Below are positions 1,240 through 55,372 of a stretch of DNA of 64,000 nt, one piece after another. Source of the stretch: Acidithiobacillus ferrooxidans ATCC 23270 (GTDB lineage: Bacteria > Pseudomonadota > Gammaproteobacteria > Acidithiobacillales > Acidithiobacillaceae); the NCBI RefSeq assembly GCF_000021485.1, contig NC_011761.1, positions 1,704,001 through 1,768,000 on the forward strand, written 5' to 3'. Each line of letters opens with the position of its first letter. Position 1 is the stretch's first letter. The position numbers and the translations under genes were made by a program. The notes beneath the pieces are model-generated. The model did no database searches. It was not told the DNA's origin and was given only the letters and a program-made list of their open reading frames with translations.

Positions 1240-1455
1240 ATGGCCTTGTTCATTACCGACGAATGCATCGACTGCGCCATCTGCGTGGCGGAATGCCCCA
1301 ACAATGCCATCTTTTCCGGCGCGAAGCATTGCGAGATCGACCCGGACCGATGCACCAAATGCGAGGGATTTTTCGCCAAGCCCCAATGTCAGGAGGTCTG
1401 CCCGGTGGATTGCATCCTGCCCATTCCACCCAGTTCTCCATGGAGACCAGATTGA
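1240..1455 (+). CDS. 2[4Fe-4S] ferredoxin
   Basis: A 71-residue bacterial-type ferredoxin, a small cytoplasmic electron carrier. The first cluster motif is CIDCAICVAECP (residues 9-20). The second is CTKC, then eight residues, then CQEVCP, the widened spacing of the Allochromatium type. The C-terminal tail after the second cluster is shorter than in most of that group. I start at the ATG at 1240, because AAAGGAG sits 11 bases upstream and homology begins there. An upstream in-frame start at 1138 would add residues without family similarity. The partner enzyme is not visible nearby. Confidence 0.9.
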   Translation: MALFITDECIDCAICVAECPNNAIFSGAKHCEIDPDRCTKCEGFFAKPQCQEVCPVDCILPIPPSSPWRPD

Positions 1456-1505
1456 TATTGTGCGCCGTGGTCAATCTGGACGTTCTTGCAATTACCTGTT
1501 TTATT

Positions 1506-1581
<76 letters not shown>

Positions 1582-1634
1582 GAAGCGCCCCATTATAGGA
1601 ATTTTTGCCAAGAAGGCAAGGGCGACACAGTGTT

Positions 1635-2060
1635 TTAGTGCGTCGCGCGCTGCCGAAGCCGTATCACCACCTCGACTTTCTCCACTTCTGTCTCCGGCGG
1701 CAGGTCAGGGAGTGTGCCGATTTGCAGGGAGGACGCCGGAATATCCACCAGATCTCCCGAATCTACATAGTAGAAATGATGGTGAGGAGACACGTTGGGG
1801 TCATAGAATACCTTACCCGGCTCCACAATCACTTCCCGCACCAGTGCATGTCCGGCGAAGAGGCCCAAGGTGTTGTAAACCGTCGCCTTGGATACTACGG
1901 GATAATCCGCATTGACGCGTTGCATGATCTCTTCGGCGGACAGGTGCGCGCAAGAGGAGAACAACGCGTAACCAATCTCCACACGCTGGCTTGTCGGATT
2001 GACTCCGGCGTCACGGAGCACTTCCAGCACACGTTGTTTGTTCCAGTCATTGTTGTTCAT
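1635..2060 (-). CDS. irr: Fur-family regulator of the Irr type
   Basis: A 141-residue Fur superfamily repressor. The winged helix contains TSQRVEIGYALF and SKATVYNTLGLF. The metal or haem region reads HHHFYYVDSGDLVDIP, and the C-terminus VEKVEVVIRLRQR closely resembles alphaproteobacterial Irr. There is no CxxC zinc motif, which argues against Fur, Zur and classical PerR. Irr proteins sense iron through haem; whether this one does is inference. I use the ATG at 2060; a GTG at 2072 is possible. The dyad just upstream may be an autoregulatory site. Gene symbol is by family resemblance only. Confidence 0.75.
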   Translation of the reverse strand: MNNNDWNKQRVLEVLRDAGVNPTSQRVEIGYALFSSCAHLSAEEIMQRVNADYPVVSKATVYNTLGLFAGHALVREVIVEPGKVFYDPNVSPHHHFYYVDSGDLVDIPASSLQIGTLPDLPPETEVEKVEVVIRLRQRATH

Positions 2061-2087
2061 GGATAGTCTCACTTTACTTCTAAACTA

Positions 2088-2101
2088 GTTATAGTTATAA
2101 C
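2088..2101. promoter_or_regulatory. Operator-like dyad upstream of the Irr-type gene
   Basis: GTTATAgtTATAAC is a perfect 6-2-6 inverted repeat, 28 bases upstream of the ATG at 2060. It resembles AT-rich boxes bound by Fur-family proteins (Zur and PerR boxes have similar half sites). Autoregulation is the natural guess. Confidence 0.5.
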
Positions 2102-2126
2102 GCTTATCTAGCGACAAGAAAAGGCC

Positions 2127-3218
2127 TTAATGTGCTGACCTCGGTGTCAGGACTGCATAGGGGGCAATATCCAACGGCAGCGGTATCCCCGTCAACAGGG
2201 AGACCAGGATATCGGCGGTCGCGGGCGCGTTGGTGAGTCCATAGCGAAAATGGCCAGCAGCGACAAAGAGCCCCTCCCATTCGGGAATGGGGCCGATGTA
2301 CGGGATGCTATCCTGGCTTCCCGGCCGCAATCCGGACCACTGCCTGAGGACCGGAGCCTGCGCCAGATCAGGAAGCATCTTGATAGTAAAGCTCAAAAGT
2401 TCTTCTCGTGCCTTGTTTGTAGTCGACTTATCAAAACCGACATATTCGCTCGTGCTGCCAGCCAGAACCAGTCCGTCCCGCCGCGGCACCAAATAATGAT
2501 TATCGTGCATCAATATCGTATCGAGGACTCCGGGTTTTCCCTGAAACAGGAGGATTTGCCCGCGCACCGGAATGATATCCAGATGACTACCCGTTTCCGC
2601 AAGGATTTTTTCGCTCCAGGCACCGGCCGTCACGACGATCCGTTCTATCGGCATAAATCCGGCGGTGGTTTCTACGCCCTCCAGTCGTTCCCCCCGTCTA
2701 CGGAAACGGGTGACCGCGGTATTTTCATGCAATACGACGCCCAGTTGACGGCAACGTGCGGACATCGCCGCCAGCAGGCGGGGGTTCCGTACCTGGGCGA
2801 CCTCCGGACACCAGAGTGTTTGCGTTTTTTCTGCAGGCCCCAGGCGCCAATCCAGCCCCCACCTCGCCCCCCAAGCCAACACATCATTTGGGATTTTCTC
2901 GTGTTCGCCCTCCAGAATAAGCAAACCGGAGGGTATCCATTCAGGATCGATGCCAGTTTGCTTTGCCAATCTGGAAGTCAGGGAGCAATAGCGCTGCATA
3001 CTATACAGCGCGAGACTCAATAGGGCAGGTGGGTAGCGCCACGGATACAGCGGGCTCAGGATGCCCCCACCAGCCCATGATGCCTCCTGACCAATATGAC
3101 CTTGATCGAGCACCGTAACCCGCAGACCGGCCTCCGCAAGCTTGATCGCACTGAGTAAGCCAATTGCGCCAGCGCCAATGAGCAGAACATCCGTATGCGC
3201 AGAGATTTCAGTCGGCAT
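2127..3218 (-). CDS. thiO: Glycine oxidase ThiO-like FAD oxidoreductase
   Basis: A 363-residue protein of the DAO/GlyOx family. The N-terminal FAD-binding GxGxxG is LLIGAGAIGLLSA (residues about 13-25). The C-terminal FAD motif is GLRPGSQDSIPYIGP, followed by GHFRYGLTNAPATA, typical of ThiO. ThiO oxidises glycine to iminoacetate for the thiazole part of thiamine. Related D-amino acid dehydrogenases are the alternative. No other thiamine gene is adjacent, so the pathway assignment rests on sequence alone. It follows tamB on the same strand after 16 bases. Confidence 0.75.
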   Translation of the reverse strand: MPTEISAHTDVLLIGAGAIGLLSAIKLAEAGLRVTVLDQGHIGQEASWAGGGILSPLYPWRYPPALLSLALYSMQRYCSLTSRLAKQTGIDPEWIPSGLLILEGEHEKIPNDVLAWGARWGLDWRLGPAEKTQTLWCPEVAQVRNPRLLAAMSARCRQLGVVLHENTAVTRFRRRGERLEGVETTAGFMPIERIVVTAGAWSEKILAETGSHLDIIPVRGQILLFQGKPGVLDTILMHDNHYLVPRRDGLVLAGSTSEYVGFDKSTTNKAREELLSFTIKMLPDLAQAPVLRQWSGLRPGSQDSIPYIGPIPEWEGLFVAAGHFRYGLTNAPATADILVSLLTGIPLPLDIAPYAVLTPRSAH

Positions 3219-3234
3219 GTGAGCTTACCACCAC

Positions 3235-6200
3235 TTAAAAGTCGATACGGTAAAAAATGTTGGCGCCATTCTGGGTCCCGCTCTCCGTCTGAACCTCAAT
3301 ATGGCGGGAAATCCGGTAACGCAGTCGTGCTACAGTACCGCTGCCCAGTACGGATTGTCCGACACTGAGATAAAGATCGGGGGTAAGATAATGACCCATG
3401 GTCACCATGGCACCCGCCAGACCCGAGTTACCTTCGGAGCTTACACCTACATCAATGCCACTGCTATCCAGGCTATTGCCGAACAGTGCGGCACGGCTTG
3501 CAGAAAAGAGTGTTCCCGCAGCGGCGGAAAGCAGCGCATTCTGACTGGTGAGACCACTGCTCGGTGTACCCAGCACGAGATAGGAGAGGATATCCGTTTG
3601 CGACATGGAAGGTTTGGAGTAGAGCGCTACCTGGGGCACTTGCAGTGTACCGGTGACTTGTACGCCAGCCTCTACGGGGGTGTTGTCCACGGCGAAGCTA
3701 GAGGAGCCTTTGATGGTGCGTACCGCCAGCACGTCCAGGTTGGCTTGGTTCGCGGCACCGCGGAAAATGATGGAACCACGCTGGAAGGTGAGGGTGTGCC
3801 CATAAATCGCATAATGGCCATCCACCATGCGCAGTGTGCCATTAACCTGCGGACTTTGGCCGTCATGCATGTCTACGGCAAGGTCACCGACCAACCGGGC
3901 ACGCAACCCGCTGATGATAACCCTCGCATCGTCCCCGAGGGTTACATGCACATTGACACCCAGGGCAGGGCCGCTGCTTTTGTGCTCATTTTTCACGAAA
4001 ACGACGTCGCCTGAGGGCTTGGGTCCGCTGAAATCTGTACCCAATATACGCAGACGGTCGGTGTGTATATTGCCCTGCACGTCGATTTTCTTTAGGTTTC
4101 CGGAAACGCTCAGGTCGGGGCTGATCGCAGCTTGTACCTGCGGCAGATTGAGCGCCGTGAAGTTCTTCCCAGTGATGTGGAGCGTAAAATCATTCGCCTG
4201 CTGAAATTGGACGATGCCTGTCCCGGATATTTGGCCAGCGCCGGAGCTGGCTTGCAGTTGATTGATTCGCAACTCTTTTCCATCTCCCACGAGTTGGGCG
4301 CCCACGTCACGAACCTCCAAACCCGCCTGCGGGACGAAAAAGCCCAGACCCTGGAGTTGTGCTGTACCTGTCCACTGCGGATGCGCCCAAGTACCCAGAA
4401 CCTGTGCGTCTATAGTCCCTTTACCTTGCGGCCGAATCCGCAAATTCCCGACGGGGAGGGCGGCAAAAAGTGGTGCACCCACATGCGCCTTTATAGCCCC
4501 TTGTATTGGGACATTGGCGTCCCAATGCCAGGGCAGAACGAGTGTCGCGGGGCTGTGCAGGGTCATCTGGGCATTACCCCAGTCATTGGCAAGACCAAGG
4601 TCAGCAGCAAGCGAGAGGTCTTTTGGCAACCAACGGAGTTGACCGGTAAACCGTTGCAGAGAGAGCGTATGCGACGTGCCTGCCTGCCGCCATTGCAATT
4701 GGGTTTTCTGAAAATTCCAATGTCCTTCCGCCTGGCAAACTCCGTGACACTGCGCTTGCAGGTGTGCATTTAAAAAACCATGGAGCGATGCATCCTCCGC
4801 CTGCGCGAAAAAATCCAGAGGTAGAGATTGCAAATCGAGCCCCAAATCGGCCTGATTGGTGGCGGGATTGTAGTGACCTTGCGTGGTAATCCGAGCCGCA
4901 TGCGCATCGGCGAAAGCCATTTTGCTGAGCGATGCAGCACCATTGACCCATTGCAGAGTGGCTGGGTGGAGTAACTGCCAGTTTCCCAGAGGGATGCTGG
5001 TCAGTATGGTCTTCTCCAATCGCAGTCCCCACGCATTGGCCTGATGAGACACCAACCCCATGACGGAGAGGCGGCTTTGCGGCCATTGCGCGTCCAGTCC
5101 CAGCGTAAAACGTGTTAATGGCCCTTGCGCATGGACCTGCAGATCAATGCGGTGGCCAGCGTATGCCAGTCCCTTTATATTGATCATAGCCTGCAAGGCG
5201 TTCGCGGCCCGGAATTCGGCCCGTGTTTTCAGTGTATTGATCTTTACACCATGATAGGCAAGCCCTTGTCCTGTGCCTTGGATTTCTCCAGTCCACTGCG
5301 CCTGAGGCCGCGCCACCCAACCCTGAAGCAGACTCTTACCTTGGGCACCGGGAAGCAAGCCCTGCCACTGCGCCACGTTGAGGACGAAATGCAGACGTTG
5401 TTGTAAATTACCTTGGGCGCCCAGGCTTACACCCGGACCAAAAAACTGTGCCTTTTGCAGATCCCACGCGCTCCCTGCGAAGTGCACCAACGCCTCGCCC
5501 TGCAAGGTTTGGCGGTAAAGCTGGCTAGGCAGCAATTGCAGCCGCACATCACCCGTGATGACTTTGGAAATTTGAGTGGCGTTGACGCTGAGGTCTCCGG
5601 AAAAATTGCCTGGTATCTGAGCCATAATGTGCTGTGTTTGCAGGCCCCTGACCCGAATTTGCCCGGTGACGGTGAGTTGCGGCCGCCACCGGACGGCCAG
5701 CACCGAAGGCAGCAGATCTGCGCCCAGCAGCTTGCCGGCATAATGGTATTGCAGGTTTTGGCGATTGCCGTTCACATTGCCCTGAATACCGCCGAATCTG
5801 GGATCACCGCGCAGCGCCAGTTGTCCTTGATAACGCTGAGTGTTCCCCCGCAAAGTCAAACTGACGGCCAATGCGCCTACCGGTAACGTGCTGGGCTGCG
5901 CTTTTGCCAGGATCTGCTCGAAGCCGCCACTGATCTGGTAACTCCCTGCAGTATTGTCGGGCAAATCAAGACGCCAATGCCCCTGTGCGGGTTTCTGGAG
6001 CGCAGGATTACTAAGCTGTAGTGACTGGAGCAAAATCTGCTGTGGAGAGATCTGCGTCATACCGCTCAAAGTCGTCAGTTGCTTGTTTTCTTGTACCTGA
6101 ATATCCAGGGGGCCGCCAAATGTCTGGGCCGAAATGCCATGCCAGTGTGTTTCCCAACTTATAGTCAACGGGTTGGTGGCACTGCCTTGTCTCCATACAC

Positions 6201-47388: not shown

Positions 47389-48060
47389 TCACAACAAAAT
47401 CGGGGTTTTTTTCTCTTGCAGGCGCAATGCCACTATATCCTCTATGGTAATGACCGGCAGGTCGTGCCGGACTGCGAAACGGACAATATCGTCTCCCTTG
47501 GCCATGCTGCCGTCCGGATTCATCAACTCGCAGAGCACCGCTGCAGGTTCCAGGCCCGCCAGTCGCGCCAGATCAACGGAACCTTCCGTATGCCCGCGCC
47601 TGCCTAATACCCCCTCCGGATGCGCACACAACGGAAAGATATGGCCGGGACGGGCGATATCCCAGGGCCGGGCGCCGGACGCGATAGCCGCCCGAATGGT
47701 AGTCACACGATCCGCTGCCGATACCCCGGTGGTCACCCCTTCCCGAGCCTCTATGGAAACCGTGAAGGCAGTACCGAAGCGGCTTTCGTTCTGTTGCACC
47801 ATGGGCGGCAAATCCAAGCGGGCCACATGCTCCGGGGTAAGGCACAAGCACACGATTCCGCTGCACTCACGGATCAACATCGCCATGGTCGCCACGGTCA
47901 GACGTTCGGCAGCGACAATAAGGTCACCTTCGTTTTCCCGATCGGAATCATCCAGGAGAATAACCGGGCGGCCGGCACGAATGGCCTCGAGTGCCCGCTG
48001 CCACTCCGGGCGGGCTACAGCAACATCACTCTTCAACAACATGGTAGTTTGAACAGACAT
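47389..48060 (-). CDS. ribB: 3,4-dihydroxy-2-butanone 4-phosphate synthase
   Basis: A 223-residue monofunctional RibB, with no fused RibA domain. Key motifs are [45 protein letters not shown] and [14 protein letters not shown]. It makes the four-carbon precursor of riboflavin from ribulose 5-phosphate. I start at the ATG at 48060, since GAGGAG precedes it. The frame is open to 48165 within the leader. Control by the FMN riboswitch upstream is clear. Confidence 0.95.
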
Positions 48061-48162
48061 GAAACGCTCCTCGCAGGTAGAAAAGGCGAAAAACATTTCA
48101 GGGCAAACGCGAACACACGGCGCTTTGTCGCGTGAAAACGCAACAAGCGTACCGTGCATCAA

Positions 48163-48304
48163 CATCTTCTTCCATCCGGACTGTGACCGTCGGCCCTGGA
48201 ATTACACCAGATCTGCTGACCTCGCGTGAACGCGAGCGCTCGCGGGCTTGCCCGACAACAAACAGGCTTACCGCCGGTGGGGAGTTTCGCCCCGCCCTGA
48301 AGAT
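48163..48304 (-). promoter_or_regulatory. FMN riboswitch (RFN element)
   Basis: On the minus strand the conserved RFN blocks appear in order: TTCAGGGCGGGGCGAAACT, CCCCACCGGCGGTA, AGCCCGCGAGC, GTCAGCAGATCTGGTG, AATTCCAGGGCCGACGGT and ACAGTCCGGATGGAAGA. A further imperfect hairpin at 48121-48149 lies between aptamer and ribB and may be part of the expression platform. FMN binding should lower ribB expression. Confidence 0.96.
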
Positions 48305-48354: not shown

Positions 48355-48450
48355 CTACCTGAAACAATCCTCCAGCTGAATGTTCGGAAACATCATGAAA
48401 ATTACGGTAGTCGTCATCCGGGATGGCCCATTTTTGCCATTTTTGCGGCT
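48355..48450 (-). pseudogene. Decayed copy of the paiB end / pfpI start
   Basis: On the minus strand an ATG at 48417 opens MTTTVIFMMFPNIQLED and soon stops at 48355-48357. It matches the start of the intact DJ-1/PfpI protein (MTITVGFLVFPGLQLLD, ending its gene at 53550) at 10 of 17 positions. Just upstream, codons ending AKMGHPG and TGA match the PaiB end (GGKKDHPG). The DNA matches over about 80 bases, including GTCATCCGGGATGG. The rest of both genes is missing. The remaining sequence of 48451-48619 holds nothing I can identify. Confidence 0.65.
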
Positions 48451-48619
48451 GGTCATGCCCCTCGAAGGGCGCACCAGATCCGACATCGGGAAAATGCGTC
48501 ACGTCAGCGTGTGGACAAGGCCCCGGCCATTGGTTATCTCACGGCGAGTGCACTGGTCGCCACCATTGGCGACGCGAGGAACTTTTCATGGCCAGGGGAA
48601 ACTCCGCCTGCCAGAGCGA

Positions 48620-49333
48620 TCACGACAGCAACCCGAGCATCGCCGCCTGCAATACGGCGGCGGTCTTGTTGACGGCGTTCAGCTTGGCCATGGCCTTGCT
48701 GATGTGAAAATTGACCGTGCGCTCCGTAATATTAAGGATATTGGCGATTTCACCGGAGGTCTTGCCCTCGCCGGTCCAGCGCAGCACTTCCACCTCCCGG
48801 CAAGATAACTGTACGGCGATCTCCGGCTGGAGTTTGGGCGCGATAACGCGGATCATGCTGAGATGGACAGCTTGGACCAACCACAGGATATGGCAGGCCT
48901 TTGCTTGCCATTCTGCCGTGGTCACGGTTTCTCCAGCACGCGCCAAGGTCAACATGCCGCCCATCCCCCCGGCGTCGCGGCAGGTGTGGGCCAACCCGGC
49001 CCGCAGCCCAAATGAACGGGCCTCTTCCCACAGTTCGCGTGCAGGCGCAAACAAGTCATCGGACCAGACGACGGGAGACGGCGAACGCATGGCGTGCCGT
49101 ACCGTGGGATCGATGGCCTGGTATTCCTGCGCTTGATATCTGGCCTGCCAGACCGCAGGGTAGTTGCTGAACAGGACGGTTTTGGGACGCACAAGCGGAA
49201 GCGGCATGCGTAAGCCATAGGCGCAGTAATCGAATTCCAGCTTACGCGCCATTTCGGACGCCATCGCCAGCACCTGCCGTTCGCATTCGATGGACTGGAA
49301 TGTCTGCAGGAGATCTTCCTTCCAAGGATCCAA
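48620..49333 (-). CDS. afeR: LuxR-family quorum-sensing regulator AfeR
   Basis: A 237-residue protein. The N-terminal autoinducer-binding domain holds the usual W-x-Y, D-P and W positions (AVWQARYQAQEYQAIDPTV, then VVWSDD). The C-terminal LuxR HTH is LSCREVEVLRWTGEGKTSGEIANIL followed by ERTVNFHISKAMAKL. It should bind an acyl-homoserine lactone and activate lux-box promoters. The start is TTG at 49333, six bases after AAGGAGG. Gene order with the RsaM-like gene and luxI matches the afe locus of A. ferrooxidans. Confidence 0.92.
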   Translation of the reverse strand: MDPWKEDLLQTFQSIECERQVLAMASEMARKLEFDYCAYGLRMPLPLVRPKTVLFSNYPAVWQARYQAQEYQAIDPTVRHAMRSPSPVVWSDDLFAPARELWEEARSFGLRAGLAHTCRDAGGMGGMLTLARAGETVTTAEWQAKACHILWLVQAVHLSMIRVIAPKLQPEIAVQLSCREVEVLRWTGEGKTSGEIANILNITERTVNFHISKAMAKLNAVNKTAAVLQAAMLGLLS

Positions 49334-49417
49334 ATGTCCCTCCTTCCCGGGCGGGGTGAGATCGTGGAGGAGAAAGCATCGCCAACCAAGTCTCGCCGTG
49401 GATATCGCTTAATCAAC

Positions 49418-49433
49418 CTGTCAGGGTTGACAC
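49418..49433. promoter_or_regulatory. Second lux-type box, imperfect
   Basis: CTGTCAgggTTGACAC repeats the core of the afeI palindrome (CTGTCAaccTTGACAG), differing at four positions. It lies in the divergent gap between afeR and the RsaM-like gene, 61 bases before the latter's ATG. It could let AfeR control one or both. Confidence 0.6.
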
Positions 49434-49494
49434 TACCGCATCATGGGGTGATTCGGTAGCCTGTTCTTATCCGAATTTTCCTGGCAGGTGATCC

Positions 49495-49926
49495 ATGACA
49501 GTGCAGAACGGAATCGCGGTAAAACCGCAAGGATATGGATTCATGAGGTTGTCTCCCGATGGTTATGTGCGCCTGACACTGGAACAGTTTCAATGGATTC
49601 CTCTGGTGCATCTTTTGTCCGGCCTGGACCATGATGAATACCCTCCTCTTCACGAAGGGGCCAGTCAAACCCACATTTCCGGTTATACCGAATGGGTCAG
49701 CGAGACGGCGCCCGTCATCACCCTGGGGTGGGACTGGCGGATGGATGGGGCGTCAGGACAGGCCCGTTATCTCCGGACGGGATTCCCACGAAGCAACATC
49801 ATGCTGGTGGATGACCAGCGGCAGGATCTGGGTCCCGCCATTACAGCCAAACTACTGGAAGCAGCCATCGACAAGACGGCCTGGCCGGCTGTGATTCAGC
49901 GCCATATCATGGATAGATATGTTTGA
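49495..49926 (+). CDS. RsaM/DUF4902-like quorum-sensing modulator
   Basis: A 143-residue protein, equivalent by position to orf3 of the afe locus. Conserved-looking blocks are SGYTEWVSETAPVITLGWDW, FPRSNIMLVDDQRQDLGPAI and TAKLLEAAI. These resemble the RsaM family (DUF4902) found between luxI and luxR genes in Burkholderia, Pseudomonas and Acinetobacter. There it restrains signal synthesis. The family assignment is from memory of those sequences, not a search. AGGTGA precedes the ATG. It ends one base into the afeI palindrome region. Confidence 0.72.
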   Translation: MTVQNGIAVKPQGYGFMRLSPDGYVRLTLEQFQWIPLVHLLSGLDHDEYPPLHEGASQTHISGYTEWVSETAPVITLGWDWRMDGASGQARYLRTGFPRSNIMLVDDQRQDLGPAITAKLLEAAIDKTAWPAVIQRHIMDRYV

Positions 49927-49975
49927 CAAGCTGTCAACCTTGACAGCTTGTCAGAAACGGCGGGGCTGGTAGATT
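49925..49975 (+). promoter_or_regulatory. lux-type box and afeI promoter
   Basis: GACAAGCTGTCAA at 49925-49937 and its exact complement at 49940-49952 form a perfect 13-2-13 palindrome. Its 20-bp centre AGCTGTCAACCTTGACAGCT fits the LuxR-box pattern CTGT-N-ACAG. The right end overlaps a -35-like TTGTCA (49948-49953), 16 bases before a -10-like TAGATT (49970-49975). This is a class II LuxR activator layout. The box also overlaps the last codon of the RsaM-like gene. Confidence 0.85.
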
Positions 49976-50009
49976 CGCTTTCATAGACAAACTCTATGAG
50001 GATGACGAG

Positions 50010-50561
50010 ATGCAGGTTATAACCGGGCCAGCTGAAGTTTTACCGAATAATCTGTATGCGAAGGTGGCCGGCTACCGACATCAAGTCTTTGTCGAGCAGC
50101 TTGGGTGGGCATTGCACACGGAGAACGGGATGGAGTCGGACCAGTTCGATCGGGCGGACACCGTGTACGTGGTAGCGCAAGATGACAACGGCCATATATC
50201 CGGTTGCGCTCGCCTCCTCCCCACCTCGCGCCCCTATCTGTTGGGCGAGATCTTTCCCCAGTTACTCAACGGACTGGCACCACCATGTTCTCCCGAAGTT
50301 TGGGAACTGTCGCGCTTTGCGGCCGTGGATCTGAATGGCCAAGCCAAGATGCCAGGGCAGTTTTCATCCTCGGGTGCGCGAAAACTGCTGGAGGAATCCG
50401 TCGCCTGCGCCGTTTCGCACGGGGCAAAACGGCTGATCACGGTGTCGCCGATCGGCGTGGAGCGGCTATTGTCTCGATCTGAATATCACGCACATCGAGC
50501 GGGCCCGCCGATGATCATCGGCGGGCACCCGATATTTGCATGCTGGATAGATCTGGACTAA
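50010..50561 (+). CDS. afeI: LuxI-family acyl-homoserine lactone synthase AfeI
   Basis: A 183-residue autoinducer synthase. Family-invariant residues are visible: R23 and F27 in YRHQVFVEQLGW, W33, D44 and D47 in ESDQFDRAD, the GCARLLPT block and ELSRFAAVD. It joins S-adenosylmethionine and an acyl-ACP; A. ferrooxidans AfeI makes mainly long-chain signals. GAGGA precedes the ATG. The palindromic box upstream predicts autoinduction by AfeR. Confidence 0.94.
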   Translation: MQVITGPAEVLPNNLYAKVAGYRHQVFVEQLGWALHTENGMESDQFDRADTVYVVAQDDNGHISGCARLLPTSRPYLLGEIFPQLLNGLAPPCSPEVWELSRFAAVDLNGQAKMPGQFSSSGARKLLEESVACAVSHGAKRLITVSPIGVERLLSRSEYHAHRAGPPMIIGGHPIFACWIDLD

Positions 50562-50911: not shown

Positions 50912-51030
50912 ACAATTGCTAATCGACAATCATCTTGTCCAGCGCATTACCTCACCGTTTTTGTTACCCAAAGGAGGGTCGTTGCCTCAAGAAAAATATT
51001 ACCCAGAATATCGGTGGATACTTGCCAGGG

Positions 51031-51165
51031 CAATTGCACGGGCTACAGGCCGACATTTGCCGAGCGATTGCGCTGGCAAAGTTTTTAGAGGATTGATCAT
51101 GACCAAGAGGATCAAGGTTTCTGAATTTCCCGAGTTTGATCTGTCACTCCGGTATCTATCGGGCG
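51031..51165 (+). pseudogene. Remnant of a HigBA-like toxin-antitoxin pair
   Basis: Codons up to a TGA at 51094-51096 read LQADICRAIALAKFLED, resembling the end of addiction-module killer (HigB/RelE-like) proteins. Two bases later an ATG at 51099, with GAGGA upstream, starts MTKRIKVSEFPEFDLSLRYL. This resembles the start of the paired antidote. After about 20 residues the likeness ends where the EVE remnant begins. Toxin front and antitoxin body are gone. The short matches make this tentative. Confidence 0.42.
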
Positions 51166-51453
51166 AAAGACGAAAATCCCAAAGCGGAATTGGTAGCCCC
51201 AGTTTTGTTTTCCGGCTGAGAACTCCAGCATCCCAAGAATGGGCCGAATAGAGGCTGCTTCGGCCGGGAGCCAGCACACGTCCCGTCGATAGGGTTGGAA
51301 TCCCCCGCCCAGTGTCACCTGGTAGGGCTCACCCTGCTCTACAATGCCAATTGCCGTGAAGGCCTGGAATTTATTCTTACCACCGAATTCAACGGTTGGC
51401 GAATAGTAGGCAACACGATCTGCGGATGCCACGGCAACCCAATTGCGACTCAT
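51112..51453 (-). pseudogene. EVE-domain protein with internal deletion and altered end
   Basis: A 113-residue frame matching the EVE (UPF0310/PUA-like) family: SRNWVAVASADRV, YYSPTVEFGGKNKFQAFTAI, GGGFQPYRRDVCWLPAEA and FSAGKQNWGYQFRFGIF. Normal proteins have about 28 residues between the first two blocks, including GGFMQVCHGK; here they are joined directly. The last 15 residues run antisense through the antitoxin scrap and are not family-like. EVE domains bind modified bases in RNA or DNA; this copy is probably dead. Its ATG overlaps the VOC gene stop. Confidence 0.72.
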
Positions 51454-51833
51454 GGCGCCGTGAGCGCGAACACGCGAAACCGACGTCCATCAGGGTCAAG
51501 TGCCACGAAAGTATGACCAAAATCCATATCCGTCGGTTATTGTTCAATGACCAGTCCACGCCGTGTCCAATCAGTGAACAGATTACCAACAACATCGCGA
51601 CTCGATACCGAAAACGCGATTTCCCCGCCACCGCCTGCTGCGGTTGCGGCAGGCTCCACGACATGTTTCGACCACAAGCCCAGCATCACTCCAGAATCCA
51701 GTGCGAACATGGCAAAATTCTGCGATGACTGAACAGGAGATTTTGTCAGTAGGCGGGTATAGAAATCGGCGCTGCGCAAAGGATTGTCCACATACAAAAT
51801 GATAAAATTCGGATCTGGCATGGTCTTCTCCAT
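51450..51833 (-). pseudogene. VOC/glyoxalase-fold gene broken by an in-frame stop
   Basis: The first 98 residues (DPNFIILYVDNPLRSADFYTRLL to RRGLVIEQ) are a VOC-family protein like phenazine or bleomycin-type resistance proteins. A TAA at 51537-51539 interrupts it. In the same frame the sequence continues PTDMDFGHTFVALDPDGRRF and RVFALTAP to a TGA at 51450-51452, exactly the missing conserved C-terminus. That final stop overlaps the EVE ATG (ATGA), so the two were once coupled. The shortened protein lacks a metal ligand region. Confidence 0.8.
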
Positions 51834-51947
51834 AATGTTGGTAGATATCCGAGAAATTTCCTTTCTGCGGGAGTCCAGAGAATACCCACCACAGCTGTCA
51901 GATTCTGTCAGTAGTATTTACTTACTGATGTCGGCGCAAAATTTGGA

Positions 51948-52290
51948 TCAGGGCAAGGAGACGTTGTGCGCGTGACACGAGGGAGTTTCCTGTAATTGCG
52001 CACTGATAAGACGCATTATGCCCGGTGATCCTCTCGAATCCACCTCTAACACGGGACAATGCAGAGAAGATTCCAGGTGGTCCATCCGCAAGATATTGGC
52101 CCCGCAAGCCTCCACGAACGCAGCGTCATGGCTCGCAAACAGCGCCAAACCCTCCAGACCACGTAACCTGATGCGCTGGGCTAGGATTTCTCGGGCATGG
52201 TTGTCCAGCCCATTGCTCGGCTCATCCAGCAGCATCACCTGCGGGTCGCCGATCCAGGCCGTGTTCAAGCGCTGTCTCGCTGATGCCATG
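51948..52290 (-). pseudogene. C-terminal remnant of an ABC transporter ATPase
   Basis: The minus strand encodes a degenerate signature region (ARQRLNTAWIGD), then Walker B PQVMLLDEPSNGLD and the switch FASHDAAFVEA. There is no Walker A: the sequence upstream of about 52290 is unrelated and soon meets the GNAT gene's downstream region. The frame is open to 52481, but that part is not family-like. Confidence 0.7.
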
Positions 52291-52380
52291 GCCATGCCCC
52301 TGTTGGCATGCGATGGCCGGAAAATCATAGTGCAACTCAAGCGGCCAAACCACCCCCTACGTGACCGTTGGCTTCGTGGG

Positions 52381-52842
52381 TCATCCGGTGGACCGCAACG
52401 ATTTGACGAAGTGATGGCCGACGATCTGATAACCGTTGCGCTGATAGAACTTGTGCGCCGGATGGTTGGTGACGTAGGCATCCAGCACCATGACTTCGCA
52501 GCCCTCCCGGTGCGCGTAGCTCTCTACCCAGTCCATAAGCTGTTGACCGATACCGGCACCGCGATACGTCGGGCCGACGATCACGTTGTCGACGTCCAGA
52601 TAGCGCCCACACCAGAAACGCGTTCCCAGCCAGATCCCCGCCACACCGATACAGCAATCATCCGAAAAAGCGGCAGCACATTGATATCCTTGTGCGGTCA
52701 TATCCTGAAGTCTTTGCGCGAGCACATCCGGCGGCACGCCAGGATTGAGCTCCTGTACCAGCGGTAAGATCATTGCCAGTTCATTTTTCTCCAACAGTCG
52801 AATCACCATCTCGGGTAGCAACTGTCCACGCTCCACAATCAT
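52381..52842 (-). CDS. GNAT-family N-acetyltransferase
   Basis: A 153-residue acetyltransferase. The acetyl-CoA site is VGPTYRGAGIGQQLMDWV; the C-terminal motif is LDAYVTNHPAHKFYQRNGYQ. It is a distant paralogue of the GNAT at 58196-58681 (shared QGY, VDD/VDN-VI and LDA-N-H-FY pattern). It is the last gene of the operon starting at 55372, 21 bases after the PfpI gene. Substrate unknown; a PaiA-like polyamine role is possible because of the paiB neighbour. Confidence 0.85.
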   Translation of the reverse strand: MIVERGQLLPEMVIRLLEKNELAMILPLVQELNPGVPPDVLAQRLQDMTAQGYQCAAAFSDDCCIGVAGIWLGTRFWCGRYLDVDNVIVGPTYRGAGIGQQLMDWVESYAHREGCEVMVLDAYVTNHPAHKFYQRNGYQIVGHHFVKSLRSTG

Positions 52843-52863
52843 CCCCCTCGTCTTGCCCTTGAT

Positions 52864-53550
52864 TCATTCTGCTGGAGAACGTGTTGTCCATTGCCCAGTA
52901 ACCCGCTCGCGTTCGGCGTGCAATGTTTCGGTACGACGCAGGACGACCTCCACGATATCCTTGGGGGCATCCTCCGGCCTGCCGGCCTGGAAAGGCGGCT
53001 CCGGCGCATATTCCAGGGCAAGCTGAATTTCTTCCGCTGCGGCTTGGCCGCGCAGCGCTGCTACCAGCACGAGACCAAAGTCTATCCCGGCAGTAACACC
53101 GCCACCGGTGATCAGATTGCCGTCCCGAACCACACGCTCCCTGACGGGTATGGCGCCGAATTCGGCGAGGAGATCATGATAACGCCAATGTGTCGTCGCG
53201 TGCCGCGCTTTGAGCAATCCTGCGGCTCCGAGAAGCAATGCGCCGGTGCAGACAGAGGTGACAAACTGCGCTGTCGACGCCTGGCGCTGCACCCATGCCT
53301 GTACTTCTTCATCGCATAGCAAGGGGTTGATGCCGACGCCACCGGGAATGCAAAGCACATCCACCAGCGGCCCATCGCCCAGTGTCGTCGTCGGATAAAA
53401 GCGCATCCCCGCCGAACAGGCCACCGGTTCCCGGGTTTTCCAGAAAAGATGTATCTCGCCATCCGGCAAGGCCGAAAAAATCTCATAGGGACCCGCCAGA
53501 TCCAGCAGTTGAAGACCCGGGAACACCAGAAAACCCACGGTAATCGTCAT
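52864..53550 (-). CDS. DJ-1/PfpI-family protein (isonitrile hydratase-like)
   Basis: A 228-residue glutamine amidotransferase-like protein. The nucleophile elbow is SVCTGALLLGAAGLL, and other conserved blocks are GFLVFPGLQLLDLAGPYE and LCIPGGVGINPLL. This subgroup includes isonitrile hydratase InhA and many stress proteins of unknown activity. Its ATG overlaps the paiB stop by four bases. A decayed copy of its start is found at 48355-48417. Confidence 0.87.
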   Translation of the reverse strand: MTITVGFLVFPGLQLLDLAGPYEIFSALPDGEIHLFWKTREPVACSAGMRFYPTTTLGDGPLVDVLCIPGGVGINPLLCDEEVQAWVQRQASTAQFVTSVCTGALLLGAAGLLKARHATTHWRYHDLLAEFGAIPVRERVVRDGNLITGGGVTAGIDFGLVLVAALRGQAAAEEIQLALEYAPEPPFQAGRPEDAPKDIVEVVLRRTETLHAERERVTGQWTTRSPAE

Positions 53551-54206
53551 CCGGGATGGTCCTTCTTGCCGCCTTTCAGGCTGGCCAGAATATATTCAGC
53601 CATGGCCTCAGAGCCAGCTTGGTTTTGCTGCTCCAGGTGCGCGACGACACTGTCACGGTTGCCAACCGGCTGGTTCTGGCTGACCTTCCACTTGCCCACC
53701 CAGCGGGAGATGGGGATTTCTATGCCCACTACCTGCTGGATGAGACGATCCGTAAAATCCCGAGGCGCATCACCCACCTCCCAGGGCGGGGTGAAACTGT
53801 TCTCCTGCTGCGCGGTCAGGGCGACCATCTGTTGCCGTACCCAATAGGGATCGTCCCTGACCTGCAGCGGCCCGTGGGCATGGACGACGGCATAGTTCCA
53901 AGTAGGCACCACCTCGCCGGTTTCCGCCTTGGTCGCATACCAGGAAGGGCTGATGTAGTGTTGCGGCCCCTGAAAGATGACCAGCACCTCATCGTCCGGG
54001 GGCGCCTCTCGCCACAGGGGATTGGCGCGTGCCACATGGCCTTGCAGCACCGGTTGCGGTCCTTCACCAGGTACGAGGTACAAGGGAATATGATTCGCCT
54101 CCAGACCATTACCGCCCATGCTGACCAATGTTGCGAGGGGATAACACTGAATCAGTGCCCGCAGGATTTCCGGGCGGTTTTCTGCAAATGACTTAGGACA
54201 ATACAA
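53547..54206 (-). CDS. paiB: PaiB-type FMN-binding regulator
   Basis: A 219-residue split-barrel protein. LYCPKSFAENRPEILRALI starts the family fold; YISPSWYATKAETGEVVPTWNY is its hallmark. Bacillus PaiB represses sporulation and degradative enzymes, but many members are annotated as FMN-binding repressors without proof. I start at TTG at 54206: AGGAGG lies six bases before, and homology begins there. The frame is open to 54248, overlapping the transglutaminase gene. Confidence 0.85.
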   Translation of the reverse strand: MYCPKSFAENRPEILRALIQCYPLATLVSMGGNGLEANHIPLYLVPGEGPQPVLQGHVARANPLWREAPPDDEVLVIFQGPQHYISPSWYATKAETGEVVPTWNYAVVHAHGPLQVRDDPYWVRQQMVALTAQQENSFTPPWEVGDAPRDFTDRLIQQVVGIEIPISRWVGKWKVSQNQPVGNRDSVVAHLEQQNQAGSEAMAEYILASLKGGKKDHPG

Positions 54207-54219
54207 GTTCGGCCTCCTG

Positions 54220-54867
54220 TCATTCCATGTTCGGCGCTGCAGACTCACTTACGCACAAATCTGCGGCGGGTGGGCGGGCATCAATGGGATGGCTCCGATA
54301 CTGCGATATGTTTTGCAGTTTTTCCATGGCGGTGAGCAAATCTGGCCAGGGCTCTGCCCAAACCTCCGGATAGGTCCGCTCGCCGTCATACCTCGACGAG
54401 AAAGCAAGATTTTCTTGGCCGGGCGTGAATTCGCAGTGGATCCCGGGTTTGCTGTTGCCGCGCGCATCACAGCGATACCAGCCCCGGTCATCCAGCCAGA
54501 CCGCGGTGAAGCCGTGTGTACAGTAGGGCGGATTGGGGCCATCCAGCGTCAGCCGTTGATAACAGAATCCCGCAGGGATTTGGTTGGCGCGCCATAAGGC
54601 CACGAGCAGATGACTTTTCGCGGTGCATAGGCCAGTGCCTTGCTGCAACACATCCGAGGCTACGCAGGTCACTTCTTCTCGGTGAAAATCCATGCTGTGC
54701 TCGATGTGATCGCGTACCCATTCGAAGCAATGCCTGGCGGTTGCCGTTGGATCGTCAGAGGATAAGGCGGCCGCCAACTTGCGGATATCGGCATGCGCAT
54801 AATCTACGGTGGCGCTTTCCATCAGGAAGTGCGGCGACGGCGGGGTATCGAATTTTGCGAGCTTCAT
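54220..54867 (-). CDS. Transglutaminase-like cysteine protease-fold protein
   Basis: A 215-residue protein with the catalytic triad of the transglutaminase-like superfamily: Cys in GTGLCTAKSHLL, His in CTHGFTAVW and Asp in RCDARGN. No signal peptide, so it is cytoplasmic. Most bacterial members are hydrolases of unknown substrate. I start at the ATG at 54867 (CAGGAAA upstream). The gene ends inside the ribosome-site region of paiB. Confidence 0.82.
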   Translation of the reverse strand: MKLAKFDTPPSPHFLMESATVDYAHADIRKLAAALSSDDPTATARHCFEWVRDHIEHSMDFHREEVTCVASDVLQQGTGLCTAKSHLLVALWRANQIPAGFCYQRLTLDGPNPPYCTHGFTAVWLDDRGWYRCDARGNSKPGIHCEFTPGQENLAFSSRYDGERTYPEVWAEPWPDLLTAMEKLQNISQYRSHPIDARPPAADLCVSESAAPNME

Positions 54868-54877
54868 AAATTTCCTG

Positions 54878-55372
54878 TTATTTCTGCGTGGGTTCGCGCA
54901 ACACACGGATATCCGCCATATCCACCAGATTCCATTCTCCATTCGCCTCCGCGCGATTCTTCAATGCCTGATTCATTGCATGAAAACCCGCTTTTGTCGC
55001 CGCTGCCATGCTGGATATGAAGATGCCTACCAAAATGCCTGAAAATTGCTCTCCCTGGGTGAACCGCGTGTACCCATTGCTGAGCGCGGCGAGCTGAAAG
55101 TAGTGCTGTCCATCGAATAAGCCCGGAAATCCCAAGCGGCCCAGCCAGCGTAATTCTTGTTGATCTGTTGCCGTCAGCACCCTCGGGCGGAAGGTCATGG
55201 CCCGGCGTTCCTCGGGTTGAATGGTCGCACGCAGCTTCTCTCCCGGCTTCGCCACTCCCGAAAGCGAGCGAATGAAGGGATTCCATTGCGGATAGGCGGG
55301 GAAATCCATAAGGATGGACCACACGTGCTCCGGTGATGCCGCAATATCAATCTGTGTCACGATCTGATGCAT
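54878..55372 (-). CDS. SRPBCC-domain protein
   Basis: A 164-residue START-like fold. IVTQIDIAASPEHVWSILMDFPAYPQWNPFI is the typical start of the SRPBCC/polyketide cyclase group, and GYTRFTQGEQFSGIL lines the cavity strand. It probably binds a small hydrophobic molecule. Of two nearby ATGs I prefer that at 55372, six bases after AAGGA; the other is at 55378. It is the first gene of the operon, 10 bases before the transglutaminase gene. Confidence 0.82.
   Translation of the reverse strand: MHQIVTQIDIAASPEHVWSILMDFPAYPQWNPFIRSLSGVAKPGEKLRATIQPEERRAMTFRPRVLTATDQQELRWLGRLGFPGLFDGQHYFQLAALSNGYTRFTQGEQFSGILVGIFISSMAAATKAGFHAMNQALKNRAEANGEWNLVDMADIRVLREPTQK

Follow-up and report, generated by a model that had tools for sequence, protein, structure and literature searches.

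The region at 48620-50561 of the window, as we term the whole 64,000-nucleotide stretch of Acidithiobacillus ferrooxidans ATCC 23270 DNA analyzed here, carries three genes, each with an open, full-length frame in the ORF check. These are a luxR-type afeR (48620-49333, minus strand; 237 aa, TTG start), orf3 (49495-49926, plus strand; 143 aa) and a luxI-type afeI (50010-50561, plus strand; 183 aa). The predicted acyl-homoserine lactone (AHL) receptor and activator encoded by afeR exceeds the Pfam cut-offs for both LuxR-receptor domains, namely Autoind_bind (PF03472; E 1.6e-42, 144.9 bits versus a cut-off of 23) and GerE (PF00196; E 4.8e-18, 65 bits versus 23.5). The predicted AHL synthase AfeI likewise matches Autoind_synth (PF00765; E 3.9e-24, 85.6 bits versus 24). 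Hence, the sequence-only reading of this stretch as a complete AHL circuit with all three genes intact is confirmed. The arrangement agrees with the published afeR-orf3-afeI locus. In the excerpted text of PMC5021923, AFE_1997 is afeR and AFE_1999 is afeI; by gene order, AFE_1998 between them is orf3. The same order is "type 1" in the classification of RsaM loci excerpted from PMC10710839. The start of afeR is a choice, since its frame is open upstream as far as 49405; the stretch AAGGAGGG, read from the sequence immediately 5' of the TTG at 49333, has a similar counterpart in genome G012, a related carrier of the trio.

Regulatory sites

Near-identical lux/afe-type boxes precede orf3 and afeI. 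Box A (CTGTCAGGGTTGACAC; 49418-49433, plus strand) stops 61 bp short of the orf3 start. Box B (CTGTCAACCTTGACAG; 49931-49946, plus strand), the core of the published afe-box, stops 63 bp short of that of afeI and lies within a 30-bp palindrome (49924-49953, plus strand) with 14 of 15 dyad matches. As read from the sequence, the distance from TTGACA to GGTAG is 22 bp in each. Box A is the weaker, with one mismatch to the symmetric consensus. Its score was reached by 4 of 200 dinucleotide shuffles of its gap and that of box B by none of 200, the shuffled gaps containing some coding bases because they were taken between domain matches. The motif common to the two boxes, CTGTCANNNTTGACA, has no exact copy in the 2.98-Mb genome outside these two boxes; as it was derived from the boxes themselves, the informative part of this result is the absence of further sites. 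Box B matches it on both strands, and a reversed control motif has no match in the genome. With one mismatch allowed, the symmetric motif has six occurrences genome-wide, this locus accounting for two, and a one-mismatch match of CTGTCANNNTTGACA is also seen at 53650-53664 within the window. Both sites are conserved in the two other carriers (G003 and G012), so that paired boxes precede orf3 and afeI in all three; G003 has one extra site elsewhere.

A sigma-70 consensus scan points to a possible afeI promoter, TTGTCA-16-TAGATT, at 49948-49975 (plus strand). This was its one promoter-like site, against a shuffle mean of 1.6, which alone is at chance level; with no excess over the shuffles, the promoter calls are tentative. 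A putative -10 hexamer for orf3, TAGCCT (49457-49462, plus strand), missed by the scan, was tentatively read from the sequence, and its spacing from box A equals that of the afeI -10 from box B. The scan of the locus detected no terminator-like site between orf3 and afeI; read-through from one into the other is thus possible. A perfect palindrome of 20 bp lies at 50505-50524, towards the end of afeI; it was reported in the window and not in the two other carriers, and was set aside as a chance occurrence.

Family membership and distribution of orf3

The middle gene had been likened, from its sequence, to the RsaM/DUF4902 proteins, and the profile search named there as its check, run as hmmscan against Pfam, bears this out: orf3 matches PF16245 (DUF4902) with an E value of 1.4e-52 and 177 bits (cut-off 25), the match covering all 118 positions of the profile (1-118). 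The only other Pfam match up to E 1 is a sub-threshold one to IPU_b_solenoid (E 0.075; 13.5 bits versus 30.2). On these grounds, we rejected identification of orf3 as RsaL, a LuxR solo or an AHL-degrading enzyme. Pfam gave no helix-turn-helix match, and NCBIfam gave no match up to E 1. A phmmer search of PDB up to E 10 recovered a single distinct sequence, 4o2h_A (BCAM1869; E 4.5e-18), the crystallized Burkholderia RsaM homologue; a 26-row profile found it at 2.1e-38, with one further, chance-level match at 0.19. An AlphaFold2 model of orf3, built from 24 sequences (mean pLDDT 83.1; residues 1-13 below 50), retrieved both chains of 4o2h in Foldseek (chain A, E 3.0e-07, TM 0.71, rmsd 4.2; chain B, E 1.1e-06, TM 0.70), the best non-RsaM match being at E 1.0. 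As modeled, orf3 shares the fold of this solved homologue.

Further, W67, W79, W81 and W130 of orf3 constitute the tryptophan quartet of the family, whose columns are W in 56 of 56 aligned domains, two of the four having been selected for by a scan pattern that included GWDW. The fifth tryptophan, W34, is not conserved, and the residues invariant across the RsaM family are retained. At 143 aa, orf3 also falls inside the RsaM size range of about 140-170 aa given in the available text of PMC10710839, and it adjoins both luxI and luxR homologues, as is typical of RsaM genes. Taking these findings together, the membership of orf3 in the RsaM/DUF4902 family is fully supported.

This membership is already known. 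The excerpt of PMC8088503 (2021), with reference to a paper of 2014, states that A. ferrooxidans has an RsaM orthologue, and that of the 2023 review PMC10710839 lists Acidithiobacillus under type 1 RsaM loci; the finding is not new in kind, and the novelty implied by the sequence-only reading was overstated. PMC3759942, PMC7984328 and PMC10972369, which deal with quorum sensing in A. ferrooxidans or acidophiles (2013, 2020 and 2024), contain no mention of RsaM and, in their available text, assign orf3 no function; the first describes the 30-bp afe-box, predicts a box before orf3 and afeR, and calls the function of orf3 unknown. These two bodies of work, one assigning orf3 no role and the other with the species or genus as a carrier, can now be joined.

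The genome of the window was searched as a single contig of 2,982,397 bases, and DUF4902, Autoind_synth and Autoind_bind have one match each in it. Among 31 genomes of the order, DUF4902 is found in three and Autoind_synth in the identical three. Autoind_bind is found in eight: strongly in the three rsaM/luxI carriers, as a partial version with a stop in G019, and weakly, in long frames, in four. Within the genus, PF00765 and PF16245 each occur in 3 of 17 genomes, that of the window included. This count is at odds with the distribution in the excerpt of PMC7984328. There, A. thiooxidans ATCC 19377 is reported to have AfeI and Orf3 of low identity, other strains of A. thiooxidans to have a conserved trio, and A. 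ferrivorans to have afeI and afeR lying apart; the two strain sets need not coincide.

Of 56 candidates from a pattern scan of genome contigs for rsaM, 49 proved to be relatives; a single-sequence scan of genome contigs confirmed none. Homologues of luxR and luxI flank rsaM in 48 of the 49 within the flanks examined, the exception being a second rsaM copy on a Burkholderia dolosa contig (L066), whose flanks have no such pair. The gene order and strands of the window recur in 40 of 49, counting one locus with luxR split across two frames (L046) and the contig of G012 (L021). When 44 loci of luxR-rsaM-luxI order were scored for lux-like boxes with 200 shuffles each, a box (reached by at most 10 of 200 shuffles) preceded rsaM in 34 and luxI in 16; these counts are not independent, 27 of the 44 loci being from Burkholderia, and the consensus used gives a low score to the usual Burkholderia box before luxI.

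Several of the relatives occur in unusual settings. Three Oxalobacteraceae loci (L028, L029 and L035) possess two different rsaM genes within one quorum-sensing locus, the arrangement classed as type 5 in the excerpt of PMC10710839. A luxR-rsaM-luxI trio is also present at 1270-3314 of a short, low-coverage contig (L025) binned as Acidobacteria bacterium; the contig either comes from a carrier that does not belong to Pseudomonadota or was binned wrongly. Two records of Acinetobacter phage MD-2021a (CAKLQH020000009.1 and CAKLQF020000013.1) encode an RsaM-like protein with 36.1% identity to orf3; both records could be host DNA.

Genomic setting and origin of the cassette

The trio adjoins a ribB-like gene (47389-48165, minus strand) preceded by an FMN riboswitch (RF00050; 48160-48308, minus strand; 115.6 bits). 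The ribB-like gene is found at 92-100% identity in 5 of the 17 genomes of the genus (G000, G002, G003, G007 and G011), and in G000 and G003 it is accompanied by the trio. The other three match the window through the ribB-like gene and the riboswitch up to 48448-48482; beyond this point, the stretches compared hold nothing matching the trio, and other sequence occupies the slot. In G012, the trio is followed by a putative HlyD-like frame, identified by reading. AfeI is 69% identical to a plasmid-encoded protein of a betaproteobacterium. This identity, the slot devoid of the trio and the distinct context in G012 together suggest movement of the cassette from one lineage to another.

The RsaM tree is too weak to prove such movement. 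It comprises 37 of the 56 domains, 19 having been dropped beforehand (18 Burkholderia rows and L021), and the third carrier, G012, is absent from it because L021 is its contig. The tree pairs G000 with G003 (98/98) and leaves 15 of 33 inner branches open, and the nearest outside relative of this pair was not settled by it. A megablast of the locus against plasmids gave no match. At the protein level, the trio on the Sulfuriferula nivalis plasmid SGTM_pl1 has the order and strands of the window, with identities of 69% for LuxI, 56% for LuxR and 45% for RsaM. Unlike the locus in the window, it is carried by a plasmid (45 kb), next to a cluster of the ATP-grasp/PhzF type, and a good box is lacking ahead of its rsaM (37 of 200 shuffles). 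This trio (L017, 5876-7839; also L107) adjoins the long ATP-grasp/PhzF/MFS gene cluster along with type VI secretion genes.

Downstream of afeI, at 51000-55300, homology to G003 is confined to short blocks with missing stretches, as in regions of gene loss or rearrangement. The intact frames there include those for a GNAT acetyltransferase, a DJ-1/PfpI protein, an FMN-binding protein and a transglutaminase-like protein.

A candidate self-limiting circuit

All three genes are under purifying selection. Nei-Gojobori dN/dS values for the three genome pairs drawn from the three related carriers are 0.196, 0.268 and 0.347 for orf3, 0.144, 0.115 and 0.093 for afeI, and 0.107, 0.121 and 0.106 for afeR. 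They bear on two alternatives, neither of which grants the Orf3 protein a part in signaling. The first holds that orf3 acts in cis, as a spacer or insulator of the afeI promoter or as a source of read-through into afeI. The lack of a detected terminator-like site between the two genes is compatible with it, and the excerpt of PMC10710839 also raises a possible cis role; however, selection acts on the amino acid sequence of orf3 and the family-invariant residues are kept, neither of which a spacer would need, and we regard this as very unlikely. The second, that Orf3 is a decaying remnant without function, might draw on its higher dN/dS (0.20-0.35, against 0.09-0.14 in its neighbors), but the ratio is well under 1, the frame is open in all three carriers and the box is conserved, making it scarcely credible.

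The published work on this species bears on how the three genes might be connected. In the excerpted text of PMC5021923, AfeR binds the afeI region in a gel shift, an agonist induces afeI while afeR is constitutive, and AFE_1998 is one of only three agonist-responsive genes (up or down) with a predicted AfeR site. The responsiveness of AFE_1998, along with the constitutive expression of afeR, indicates that box A points at orf3 and not at afeR. As the near-identical boxes precede orf3 and afeI, and their exact motif is found nowhere else in the genome, the signal probably induces its own limiter, as has been proposed for AbaM of Acinetobacter.

What such a limiter might do is suggested by orthologues. 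According to the available text of PMC10710839, an abaM knockout makes 100-800-fold more AHL, and mutants of P. fuscovaginae and B. thailandensis show strong AHL rises; the Burkholderia homologue is a dimer that binds neither DNA nor AHL, and in Massilia, RsaM is fused to LuxR. The excerpt of PMC8088503 describes abaM as quorum-sensing-induced and self-repressed, with an incoherent feed-forward loop proposed. The abaR-abaM-abaI locus of A. baumannii offers a close parallel: in the same excerpt, it has the gene order and strands of our locus, an RsaM-family middle gene with its own promoter, and lux-type boxes before both abaM and abaI. It differs in that the RsaM proteins are about 36% identical and the box before abaM is positioned differently; moreover, the effect of AbaM was measured in A. 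baumannii, whereas that of Orf3 is predicted. Burkholderia RsaM loci (that of 4o2h, BcRsaM, and rsaM1 and rsaM2 of B. thailandensis) share with ours the family, the fold, the tryptophan quartet and, in most loci seen, the gene order. Their proteins are 36-39% identical to orf3 in the B. cenocepacia and B. latens rows, and their two boxes differ in sequence from the afe boxes. Loci of the lasR-rsaL-lasI type similarly place a small negative regulator between the receptor and synthase genes (excerpt of PMC8088503), but RsaL is an unrelated DNA-binding protein (excerpt of PMC10710839), unlike orf3 with its lack of a helix-turn-helix match.

Taking these lines together, we consider it likely that the LuxR/RsaM/LuxI cassette forms a self-limiting loop of the incoherent feed-forward kind. 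AfeR with AHL would activate afeI through box B, for which AfeR binding and the response of afeI to an agonist are in print (PMC5021923); box A, near-identical in sequence, would very likely serve orf3 in the same way. Orf3 would then lower afeI output and thereby cap AHL, probably by a route other than DNA binding, such as contact with AfeR or a post-transcriptional effect on AfeI. A markerless deletion of afeI is reported in the excerpt of PMC7984328. In the open-licence literature, as far as its excerpts extend, we found no study in which orf3 by itself had been deleted or overexpressed; the "brake" in A. ferrooxidans is accordingly deduced from orthologues, and on that analogy we view a limiting effect of orf3 on the signal as a sound inference.

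Orthologues also supply the strongest competing explanation, under which Orf3 is indeed an RsaM-family protein, one whose main action is on target genes, either positive or AHL-independent, and which changes the AHL level little. TofM has a positive effect on toxoflavin despite lowering AHL (excerpts of PMC10710839 and PMC8088503), so not every RsaM effect need be a brake, and for the P. fuscovaginae RsaM, effects on genes that do not depend on quorum sensing have been reported (excerpt of PMC8088503). Against this, the RsaM protein lowers AHL in P. fuscovaginae, A. baumannii, B. thailandensis and B. cenocepacia, as does TofM itself, in the available text of the same two papers. Hence, we hold a role confined mainly to target genes to be unlikely.

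If orf3 does act as a brake, constructs with the whole trio would bring along their own limiter, which is relevant to attempts at raising bioleaching via quorum sensing. A more speculative extension, which we put forward as doubtful, is that quorum sensing owes its substrate dependence to the RsaM brake, which would hold AfeI low on ferrous iron. Were it true, deletion of orf3 on iron would resemble afeI overexpression; forced expression of afeI, according to the excerpt of PMC7984328, slows iron oxidation, with cell density at about 70% of the control.
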